The position numbers and the translations under genes were made by a program. From the NCBI GenBank assembly GCA_002712715.1, contig PAUF01000017.1, positions 67,796 through 101,824 of the forward strand: 34,029 bases of DNA, in the 5' to 3' direction. A model generated the notes under the pieces. That model was not told the origin of the DNA. It made no database searches and worked only from the letters and a program-made list of their open reading frames with translations. Numbering within the stretch: position 1 is the first letter of the stretch; every line of letters begins with the position of its first letter. Source of the stretch: Flavobacteriales bacterium (lineage in GTDB: Bacteria; Bacteroidota; Bacteroidia; Flavobacteriales; BACL11). This document shows, one piece after another, positions 31,703-34,029 of this stretch.

Positions 31703-31724
31703 TTAACTTTAGTGTTTCATAAAG

Positions 31725-31732
31725 CAAACTTA
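31725..31732 (-). promoter_or_regulatory. -7 promoter element for the DUF2071 gene
   Basis: Minus strand TAAGTTTG, a perfect TAnnTTTG, 22 bp before the ATG. Confidence 0.55.
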
Positions 31733-31765
31733 CAGAAAAATTATGGGAAATATAAAAGAGAAAAA

Positions 31766-31791
31766 GTCGAGGTAGCAGGATTACAACCTAC
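31766..31791 (-). pseudogene. decayed tRNA 3' fragment (T-arm plus acceptor strand), putative
   Basis: On the minus strand, GTAGG-TTGTAAT-CCTGC forms a 5-bp T-stem (one G-U pair) with a 7-nt loop. It is followed by TACCTCGAC, like the 3' acceptor strand of a tRNA. The loop lacks the canonical TTCRA bases (it has TTGTA), and no D-arm or anticodon arm precedes it. It looks like the broken 3' end of a tRNA gene, as left at integrase attachment sites. This could be chance. Confidence 0.35.
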
Positions 31792-31943
31792 ACTCTTTTT
31801 ACATGATTAATAAAATCATTTAAAACTTTTACAATCTAGTAATTGACCTTAATCTGTCTATTTATCTATTAATTTACCCAAATAAAAACAAGGTTTTTAT
31901 ATTATATAGTATGAAGTGATAAATATTAACTAAAAATAAACTA

Positions 31944-32037: not shown

Positions 32038-32742
32038 ATGAAAAAACTACTATTGATTTTACTATGTGTGCCTTTGATTGGGATGGGGCAGGATTATTCT
32101 TCAATTAAAATATATTCAAATATGGAGTGTATATCAGGAAATTGTAAGAATGGAGAGGGAGCCTGTAAATTATATAAGCAAGATACTTATATAGGTAAAT
32201 ATGAAGGTACTTTTAAAAATAGTATACCTGATGGTAATGGTACTCTTACTTATTTCAATGGAGACAAATATGTTGGAGAATTTAAAAATCACCTTTCTGG
32301 CTATGGAACTTATACCCACCATAATGGAGATGTATATGTAGGAAGTTTTAAAGATTCAGATAGAAATGGAAATGGTAAACTTATTTTCAATAATGGAGAG
32401 ATATATGAAGGAGAATGGAAGGATGGTAAACGTAATGGTTTAGGTGTCCTTACGCTTCCTAATGGAGAAGTATATGAAGGAACATTTAAAAATGGTTTAG
32501 CTGATGGCAATGGCACTCTCATAAAAGGAGAAGGTCCAAACAAAGGAGATAAATATGTAGGTAAATGGAAAAATGGCAAGTTTGAAGGAATAGGAACGTA
32601 TTATTGGGCTAATGGAGCAAAATACGAGGGAGAATACAAAAAAGGCAGAAGAAATGGAATAGGTAAATTTACCCTACCTAATGGAAAAATAACAGAAGGA
32701 TTATGGGAAAACAGTAGGTTCATAGGAAAAGAAAAAAAATGA
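32038..32742 (+). CDS. secreted MORN-repeat protein
   Basis: A 234-residue protein with a signal peptide (MKKLLLILLCVPLIGMGQ). About eight MORN repeats of 22-23 residues follow, from near residue 54 to the end (for example YVGEFKN, GYGTYTHHNGD, YEGEWKDGKRNGLGVLTLPNG). Cys 31, 36 and 43 lie before the repeats. MORN arrays form elongated beta-hairpin stacks; in bacteria their role is mostly unknown. The gene ends by overlapping the next start (ATGA), so translation is coupled. The first 54 bp are nearly identical to the starts of the three following genes. Confidence 0.9.
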   Translation: MKKLLLILLCVPLIGMGQDYSSIKIYSNMECISGNCKNGEGACKLYKQDTYIGKYEGTFKNSIPDGNGTLTYFNGDKYVGEFKNHLSGYGTYTHHNGDVYVGSFKDSDRNGNGKLIFNNGEIYEGEWKDGKRNGLGVLTLPNGEVYEGTFKNGLADGNGTLIKGEGPNKGDKYVGKWKNGKFEGIGTYYWANGAKYEGEYKKGRRNGIGKFTLPNGKITEGLWENSRFIGKEKK

Positions 32743-33347
32743 AAAAACTACTATTAATTTTACTATGTGTGCCTTTGATTGGGTTTGGACAAACTGAATA
32801 TAAGAAAGAGTATTGGGATAATGGTCAATTAAAAGAAGAAGGAAGCTATATAGATGGTAAGAAGGAAGGTCCTTTTAAATGGTATCATGAAAATGGTCAA
32901 TTGAGATTAGAAGGAAACTTTAAAGAAAATACACTGGAAGGTCTTTGGAAACAGTATTATAAAAATGGTCAATTAGAATTTAAAGGAAACTATAAAGAAA
33001 ATAAAAGGGAAGGTCTTTGGAAAGAGTATCGTGAAAATGGTCAATTAAAATGGGAAAGAAACTTTAAAGATGATTATTTAGAAGGTTTTTGGAAATTGTA
33101 TTATTTAAATGGTCAATTACATAGGGAAGAAAACTATAAAGAAGATAAAAGGGAAGGTTCTTTTAAATTGTATTATAAAAATGGTCAATTAAAAAGGGAA
33201 TGTATCTATAAAGAAAATACACTGGAAGGTCTTTGGAAAGAGTATCATGAAAATGGTCAATTAGCATCGTATAAAAGCTATAAAGAAGGAGAACTAATTT
33301 CTAATAAATGTTGGGATGAAGAAGGAAACGAAATAGACTGCGAATAA
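32739..33347 (+). CDS. secreted MORN_2 (YwqK-like) repeat protein
   Basis: A 202-residue protein with a signal peptide (MKKLLLILLCVPLIGFGQ). It has seven repeats of the toxin-antitoxin YwqK/MORN_2 type (YYKNGQLEFKGNYKE, EGLWKEY). The AATGGTCAA codon triplet recurs at 32820, 32892, 32964, 33036, 33108, 33180 and 33252, a strict 72-bp (24-residue) period. The protein is very rich in Lys, Glu, Tyr and Asn and ends with a Cys-containing tail (NKCWDEEGNEIDCE). No catalytic domain is present. The annotated antitoxin link of the family does not imply a toxin here; none is adjacent. It overlaps the previous gene by 4 bp. Confidence 0.9.
   Translation: MKKLLLILLCVPLIGFGQTEYKKEYWDNGQLKEEGSYIDGKKEGPFKWYHENGQLRLEGNFKENTLEGLWKQYYKNGQLEFKGNYKENKREGLWKEYRENGQLKWERNFKDDYLEGFWKLYYLNGQLHREENYKEDKREGSFKLYYKNGQLKRECIYKENTLEGLWKEYHENGQLASYKSYKEGELISNKCWDEEGNEIDCE
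32820..33323 (+). repeat. seven-unit 72-bp tandem coding repeat
   Basis: Units begin with AATGGTCAATTA or a near variant at a fixed 72-bp spacing, and each encodes one 24-residue MORN_2 module. Units share long stretches (for example AAGAAAATACACTGGAAGG in two units). The identity is high enough for recombination between units. Confidence 0.85.
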
Positions 33348-33348
33348 T

Positions 33349-33786
33349 ATGAAAAAACTACTACTACTATTACTATGTGTGCCTTTGATGTTCTCTTGTG
33401 GGGAAGAAGAAGGTGAATCTAATAAGGAGAAATTACATAATACGGAGACAGAAAATTCAAGAATTGAAGTAGATGAATTAGGTGAAGTTTATTTAAGAAA
33501 TATTTCTAAGAATGAAAAATTTGAATTTACTGTATCTATATCTGTTAGTAATTGTATTAATCATGTTGAGAAGAGGAAAGAATATGGAAGCGAATTAGAA
33601 TATCAAAAATTTTATATCTTAAGACCTGGAGAACAACGATATTTAGGAAGTTTATGTAAGTTTGATGATGGAAATTTCGGTCTATCTAATGCTAATGCAT
33701 GGTATAGTAGATACAGAGATTGTAAACCATGTAATGACACCTCAAAAATTACTTATTCTGTAATGGGAGAGCTTAAGATAGAATAA
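33349..33786 (+). CDS. small lipoprotein of unknown function
   Basis: A 145-residue protein that begins MKKLLLLLLCVPLMFSCGEEE. The start is the same signal-peptide DNA as its neighbours, but it ends in a lipobox (LMFSC), so Cys 17 is probably lipidated. After an acidic linker the mature part is beta-rich (VYLRNISKNEKFEFTVSISVSNC, FYILRPGEQRYLGSL). It carries Cys residues in SNC, SLC and DCKPCND that could form disulfides. I recognise no domain. It starts 1 bp after the stop of the MORN_2 gene and is probably in the same transcript. Confidence 0.78.
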   Translation: MKKLLLLLLCVPLMFSCGEEEGESNKEKLHNTETENSRIEVDELGEVYLRNISKNEKFEFTVSISVSNCINHVEKRKEYGSELEYQKFYILRPGEQRYLGSLCKFDDGNFGLSNANAWYSRYRDCKPCNDTSKITYSVMGELKIE

Positions 33787-33818
33787 ATTGAAATCCTTTA
33801 TAACTTAAAATAAATACT

Positions 33819-34029
33819 ATGAAAAAATTACTATTGATTTTACTATGTGTGCCTTTGATTGGGTTTGGGCAAACTGAATATAAGAAAGAGTATTATGATA
33901 ATGGTCAATTAAAAGAAGAAGGAAGGTCTTTGGAAATTGTATTATGATAATGGTCAATTAAAAAAAGAAGGAAGGTATAAAGATGGTAAGAAGGAAGGTC
34001 TTTAGAAATGGTATTATTCAAATGGTCAA
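33819..34029 (+). pseudogene. frameshifted MORN_2 (YwqK-like) gene, runs off the window
   Basis: It starts with the same signal-peptide DNA as the gene at 32739, and the first 105 bp are almost identical. The start frame (42 codons) ends at TGA 33945-33947. The MORN_2 reading continues in another frame from 33922 (EGLWKLYYDNGQLKKEGRYK), then meets TAG at 34003-34005 where a Trp codon TGG is expected, and resumes as KWYYSNGQ. Spacing of AATGGTCAA is 49 bp (33900 to 33949) instead of 72, so 23 bp are missing; the next interval (33949 to 34021) is 72 again. It has both a frameshift and a nonsense change. Confidence 0.85.
33965..33999 (+). repeat. 12-bp direct repeat pair with 23-bp offset
   Basis: AAGAAGGAAGGT occurs at 33965-33976 and again at 33988-33999, a 23-bp offset. 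The preceding unit keeps only one copy (33916-33927) and lacks exactly 23 bp. The gene at 32739 has a 10-bp version of the same pair at 32836-32845 and 32859-32868. Confidence 0.85.

Follow-up and report, generated by a model that had tools for sequence, protein, structure and literature searches.

The four consecutive gene starts near the end of the window (the whole stretch of DNA that was analysed, 34,029 nucleotides in length; Table 1) share 45-54 bp of signal-peptide DNA, and they are probably copies of a family-specific module that short-tract recombination or gene conversion has spread and keeps uniform. As judged from the sequences of orthologs, the module has taken the place of the native signal in some existing genes at least, and orthologs differ in the module subtype that they carry. 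The initial annotation had pointed to 20 identical bases in all four starts, and the 20-mer TTACTATGTGTGCCTTTGAT was indeed found exactly at 32038, 32739, 33349 and 33819, with four occurrences against 0 expected in 100 dinucleotide-preserving shuffles of the window. Its wider claim, that the first 54 bp are nearly identical throughout, was accurate for genes 1 and 2 (49 matches), 1 and 4 (50) and 2 and 4 (51) but not for gene 3, which matches the other three at only 39-41/54 and 36-38/45 because its end encodes a lipobox (MFSCG) rather than IGFGQ. Outside the module, the 54 bp upstream of the four starts match pairwise at 14-21/54 and the 54 bp that follow it at 14-22/54, except in genes 2 and 4, which remain alike past the module (51/54) and are therefore ordinary paralogs. 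The full-length similarity that simple duplication predicts was not found among the window genes apart from this pair, and the four different mature proteins described at the outset are better counted as three unrelated mature types, since genes 2 and 4 are both MORN_2 proteins.

Table 1. Positions of the module copies, the genes that they head and the tRNA-Pro-related features (window coordinates, except in the last row, which refers to a related locus).
Feature	Position	Strand	Basis or remark
Module copy 1, subtype B, MKKLLLILLCVPLIGMGQ	32038..32091	+	44/45 against copies 2 and 4 (45-nt core)
Module copy 2, subtype B, MKKLLLILLCVPLIGFGQ	32739..32792	+	Sequence comparison
Module copy 3, h-region nearest subtype A, lipobox c-region, MKKLLLLLLCVPLMFSCG	33349..33402	+	Sequence comparison
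Module copy 4, subtype B, MKKLLLILLCVPLIGFGQ	33819..33872	+	Sequence comparison
Gene 1, secreted MORN-repeat protein, 234 aa	32038..32742	+	Pfam MORN, E 2.7e-42
Gene 2, secreted MORN_2-repeat protein, 202 aa, 4-bp overlap with gene 1	32739..33347	+	Pfam MORN_2, E 8e-34
Gene 3, predicted lipoprotein, 145 aa, no Pfam family	33349..33786	+	Lipobox read from sequence
Gene 4, disrupted MORN_2 paralog of gene 2 with 42 codons, cut off at the contig end	33819..33947	+	Sequence comparison
tRNA-Pro-end element, partial 92-bp copy	31718-31809	-	229 bp left of the MORN array, directly upstream of a DUF2071 gene
ORF read as a putative tyrosine recombinase	L359:1202-2395	+	In G030, after tRNA-Pro

In gene 4, a frameshift leads to a stop after 42 codons, and the frame in which the repeats resume also contains a stop. 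The contig (C17) ends at window base 34029, inside the gene 4 region, so an assembly error in this last stretch is possible, and the frameshift and further stops between 33819 and 34029 can be read equally well as decay or as assembly error.

Our comparison of non-homologous genes showed that the module copies, in their subtypes A, B and C, descend as a single DNA lineage and are not a product of peptide convergence. Among same-subtype genes without mature similarity, identity was 0.90-0.94 over codons 1-7 and 0.82-0.87 over codons 8-14, fell to 0.40-0.63 over codons 15-18 and was 0.31 just after; on the 5' side, it was 0.29-0.30 at -60 to -37 and 0.37-0.42 at -18 to -1, leaving a core of 0.82-0.94 between flanks of about 0.3. 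The conservation of synonymous positions noted initially was borne out, with the same codon used at shared residues at a frequency of 0.74-0.82 against 0.43-0.45 expected from codon usage, CTA at 88-95% of module leucine sites (background 12%) and, in subtype C, GGG at 80-85% of sites (background 9%), although these statistics are inflated by the collection of module genes mostly through DNA similarity, which a peptide-only set partly counters. In that set, all genes with at least 14/18 residues have at least 34/42 module bases, compared with an average of 23/42 and a maximum of 29 in 42 ordinary signal peptides of the same genomes (both scored ungapped), and the module identity thus does not fall to the level of a shared hydrophobic peptide. 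Convergence on a favoured signal peptide under AT-rich codon usage, to which such simple, leucine-rich peptides might otherwise be attributed, is ruled out by this codon choice and is in our view scarcely credible, given also that a peptide-like ordinary signal of the same genome, MKKRLLLFVLCLPLFGLA, has different DNA (20/42).

The same data bear on nucleotide-level purifying selection, by which the first 45 bases would be an RNA or translation signal (slow codons, mRNA targeting) of old spread and without continuing conversion. Rare codons at fixed sites, a conserved stretch that ends near functional borders (the ATG and the signal c-region) and an identity that stays high across genera are all consistent with such selection; subtypes A and C, however, differ at 7/42 bases and use other codons, and since they serve alike with different strings, one particular string is not required. 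Ordinary signals in the same genomes do without the string, and no RNA structure was found in the module (z -0.2 to -1.4). Selection alone would also leave the origin of sharing among unrelated genes unexplained. We regard this explanation as rather unlikely; nucleotide selection may add to the conservation of the module but does not explain its distribution.

A count across the genome of origin (1.55 Mb), which had been proposed as a check, showed that the exact module is not common there, the 20-mer having only four copies at 0-1 mismatch, all in the window, but is abundant in sister genera. One further match, with 2 mismatches, does not mark the start of a module, and two weaker partial DNA matches at the gene starts C7:291033 and C16:42268 are ordinary signals. 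In 257 Gb of bacterial and archaeal genomes, the exact 20-mer was restricted to Flavobacteriales MAGs, and all GTDB contigs together held 22 occurrences on 21 contigs, always in such MAGs; because these contigs stem from different projects, the 20-mer is not the artefact of one assembly. At 0-2 mismatches, it recurs in other genera of the family at up to 15 places per genome on different contigs, with a single match of the reversed 20-mer in 52 family genomes as the control. A 66-bp query matched 42 of these 52 genomes, including all 15 good ones, and only one of 180 other genomes of the order, in that case partially. The related modules of the family fall into the three DNA subtypes, with strong copies numbering up to at least 17 per genome; subtype C (MKKLLLILLCLPMIGFGQ), a sister form, was present in 31 of the 52 genomes and 12 of the 15 genera (at most 3 mismatches in 36 bp), with 0 control matches. 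No exact match of the A/B or C strings, as would mark a viral carrier, was found in viral contigs. De novo searching recovered three module genes in G048, a member of the family, none in 400 kb of G063 from another family, and only conserved-start lipoproteins and apparent repeated-element fragments in 400 kb of G061, also from another family. The lipoprotein genes of G061 (L261-L266 at about 210-217 kb, 89948 and 126617) are mostly near-tandem, with the start MKTKNLFKNLLSLLTLVLFAFSCTKP conserved as DNA; they are probably paralogs and may represent a second, local case of module sharing. All compared genomes are MAGs or other assemblies, and module genes often lie a few hundred bases or less from contig ends (e.g., the end of G000:C17, G040:C55, G010:C112 and G014:C106), as if assemblies broke near them through repeats or strain variation.

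The module heads a wide range of proteins. The 173 module-headed ORFs, from 40 genomes, comprise at least 61 mature-protein clusters, a low count because one cluster of 80 reads as chained by repeats and a shared C-terminal tail. Pfam places at least a dozen unrelated families behind the module, including LRR, HupE, Cu2_monoox_C, PHB esterase, CAP, caspase domain, TPR/YARHG, Kazal, thioredoxin, arylsulfotransferase, beta-barrel OMP, Vps10, MORN and MORN_2, and many module genes are short singletons without a Pfam family. Every copy has its own ATG and signal peptide, and copies in sister genomes are dispersed over many contigs, a single locus being seen only in the genome of the window. Plain gene duplication, in which full-length paralogs would have diverged beyond recognition in their mature parts, describes window genes 2 and 4, which are true paralogs, but is very improbable as the general explanation: the mature parts belong to unrelated Pfam families, the copies lie on many contigs, and the synonymous sites of the module could not survive while the remainder became unrecognisable. 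On the basis of Pfam families and flank identity, full-length duplication was ruled out for all but this pair.

Two genes, HupE and a Cu-monooxygenase-like gene (Pfam Cu2_monoox_C), have signals of their own in relatives, and replacement therefore happened at least there. The monooxygenase-like ortholog, usually one per genome, carries a near-perfect module of subtype B in G013, A in G014 and C in G047, and G013 and G014 belong to the same genus yet differ in subtype at this gene. In the other readable orthologs, the signals are no nearer to the module than ordinary signals are, with G038 and G008 borderline; the regapped scores out of 45 were about 29-36 for ordinary signals, 28-38 for non-module monooxygenase orthologs and 41-45 for clear modules, ungapped scoring exaggerating the remoteness of some orthologs. 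The orthologs in G038 (38/45) and G008 (37/45) may be decayed modules. In the tree of monooxygenase-like mature parts, G047 groups with four module-less g15 genomes, and at least two changes are forced. For HupE, six orthologs have the module or a close derivative and seven have an ordinary signal one codon longer; ordinary signals are basal in the tree and module forms derived, with modest support for a single gain (68/87). The HupE-specific end GGATGGTCTCAT adjoins the module in G010 and G014 and is found without it in G002 (GGATGGTCT), which is most simply read as an in-place overwriting of the hydrophobic core, and a single gain followed by lateral transfer is also compatible with these data. 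A block change of sequence type at one ortholog was thus encountered in both genes, as B, A or C in the monooxygenase-like gene and as a replaced core in HupE.

These two genes also bear on the capture of starts alone, whereby new ORFs would have joined a module start through illegitimate recombination and existing signals would never have been overwritten. The many short singletons without a Pfam family and the unrelated DNA directly after module starts fit such capture, but in relatives both HupE and the monooxygenase-like gene came with signals already, and as an account of the whole pattern we consider it unlikely. Module likeness is uncoupled from the gene: across 64 cross-genus reciprocal best pairs, it was 0.845 for ortholog modules and 0.835 for modules of unrelated genes within one genome (p=0.27), modules within a genome being no more alike than those of orthologs. 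The export-signal shuffling by duplication or conversion that was initially suggested is upheld in that orthologs occur with the module, without it or with other subtypes; for genes 2 and 4 it gives way to plain duplication, and its conversion step is the part that we infer.

In the reading that we favour, of a module spread by short-tract recombination, the unit would begin at the ATG and extend to the end of the hydrophobic core (about 42-45 bp), at times with some upstream sequence, and would have been copied repeatedly to the 5' ends of unrelated accessory genes for secreted proteins and lipoproteins. Copying would proceed by short-tract homologous or microhomology-guided recombination (gene conversion), with ATGAAAAAA at the start and GGGTTTGGGCAA or the lipobox end as likely anchors, to which tandem arrays would add the conserved tail DNA at the 3' end of the secreted gene just before; gene duplication, as in genes 2 and 4, and lateral transfer in variable regions would contribute. 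Incoming or diverging genes would in this way receive a ready and working export start, sometimes keeping their own cleavage region, as in HupE. The swapping of modules is evident from the ortholog alignments, and gene conversion is its presumed mechanism, although a length of 45-54 bp is short for homologous recombination and counts against conversion. No special enzyme for module copying was identified.

Several traces of joining were observed. A few modules are A/C mosaics, clear ones being scarce, and truncated modules lie directly upstream of full ones at L023 and L028 and before another start at L359. Among 36-bp upstream stretches, 54 non-homologous pairs were at least 70% identical, against 0 in shuffles. 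The shared upstream DNA is mainly of two kinds, namely a promoter-like stretch past a tRNA-Pro 3' end and the end of the preceding gene's C-terminal tail (e.g., GATGATGGAACAGTAGAGAAAAGAATAACAATAGATTAACA before the ATG), apparent remnants of tail DNA also occurring where no such tail is visible. Many secreted genes likewise end in codons (LFYIYDDGTVEKRIIIE-stop) that are conserved as DNA (e.g., L021, L029, L355 and L366) and retain rare codons, with Leu CTC at 43% (background 3%), Ile ATC at 70% (8%) and Glu GAG at 70% (18%) in tails picked by peptide, which suggests that both gene ends are modules. The C-terminal tail may be a type IX sorting signal; a Pfam type IX domain (CHU_C) was named in L041 only. 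A more tentative idea, which we hold as possible but doubtful, is that the 45-bp module and the tail DNA module serve as recombination bookends between which the coding region is exchangeable, unrelated products thereby being exported at once. If module and tail do form a dedicated exchange frame, this would be more than a variant of known processes.

A second dispersed repeat resembles the 3' end of tRNA-Pro (GTAATCCTGCTACCCCGACTTTTT), with about 120 bp conserved before it and a promoter-like stretch (..CCCATAATTTTCTGTAAGTTTGCTTT) after it. It was present in 30 of the 52 family genomes, with a maximum of 13 copies, and the copies often form arrays spaced about one gene apart (loci L355, L356, L357, L358, L359 and L366), and its single-strand folding, checked against the integron attC hairpin, is weak (-6.5 and -8.6 kcal/mol). 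In G006 and G030, a true tRNA-Pro is followed by repeat copies between cargo genes; the window has only one partial copy and no tRNA gene directly upstream of its module genes, a true tRNA in that position being found in some related loci only. In G030, the putative tyrosine recombinase is followed by apparent DNA-methyltransferase and defence-like genes and then by three tRNA-end copies with small genes between them, and it may be regarded as a candidate for the enzyme driving the islands. No recombinase was found among the window proteins scanned with Pfam, which represent part of the window ORFs at a locus that runs off the contig. The repeat may belong to an additive genomic island or to an array of cassettes. 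Islands of the additive kind, with repeated tRNA ends, are described in Methylophilaceae, in the part of the source considered here (PMC10872708), and these islands, like tycheposons, share with the G006 and G030 loci the tRNA 3'-end repeats between cargo genes beside an intact tRNA, which in G006 and G030 is tRNA-Pro; unlike in our loci, a shared promoter or signal-peptide module at cargo starts goes unmentioned in that part (PMC10872708). One way for module genes to reach variable regions may be through the tRNA-Pro-end islands.

The module can be set beside several known systems. In the vsa, vsp and vpma lipoprotein families of mycoplasmas, a single expression start is shifted between silent copies at one locus by a site-specific recombinase. 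The resemblance lies in a conserved signal-peptide 5' end, differing mature parts, arrays and recombination at the 5' end; unlike in the vsa and vsp families, each copy here has its own ATG and signal peptide, copies are dispersed over many contigs, and the mature parts are unrelated families. Prochlorosin and conotoxin precursors combine a conserved N-terminal leader or signal with a variable remainder of one product class, and here, too, a conserved signal precedes a very variable remainder, but enzymes of unrelated fold, repeat proteins and lipoproteins stand behind one signal DNA. Concerted evolution by gene conversion is familiar from, for example, paralogous outer membrane protein genes, and the modules of unrelated genes are similarly slightly more alike in one genome (0.850) than in one genus (0.833) or across genera (0.809); the repeated unit, in contrast, measures only some 45 bp and is carried by genes that are not homologous. 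A search of the literature on signal-peptide shuffling, conversion, MORN proteins and tRNA-linked cassettes returned no account of the module, which is weak evidence, as subscription journals lay mostly outside the search. The ingredients, namely recombination, conserved leaders and concerted evolution, are already known.

Signal peptides are usually assumed to evolve together with their proteins. In these marine Flavobacteriales, the signal behaves like a unit of DNA that passes from one gene to another, which suggests a simple way for new secreted proteins of marine bacteria with small genomes to acquire export and makes bacterial module shuffling testable at the nucleotide level. It also carries a warning that proteins of these genomes with similar N-termini need not be homologous. 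This family of Flavobacteriales thus seems to copy and paste ready-made secretion starts.
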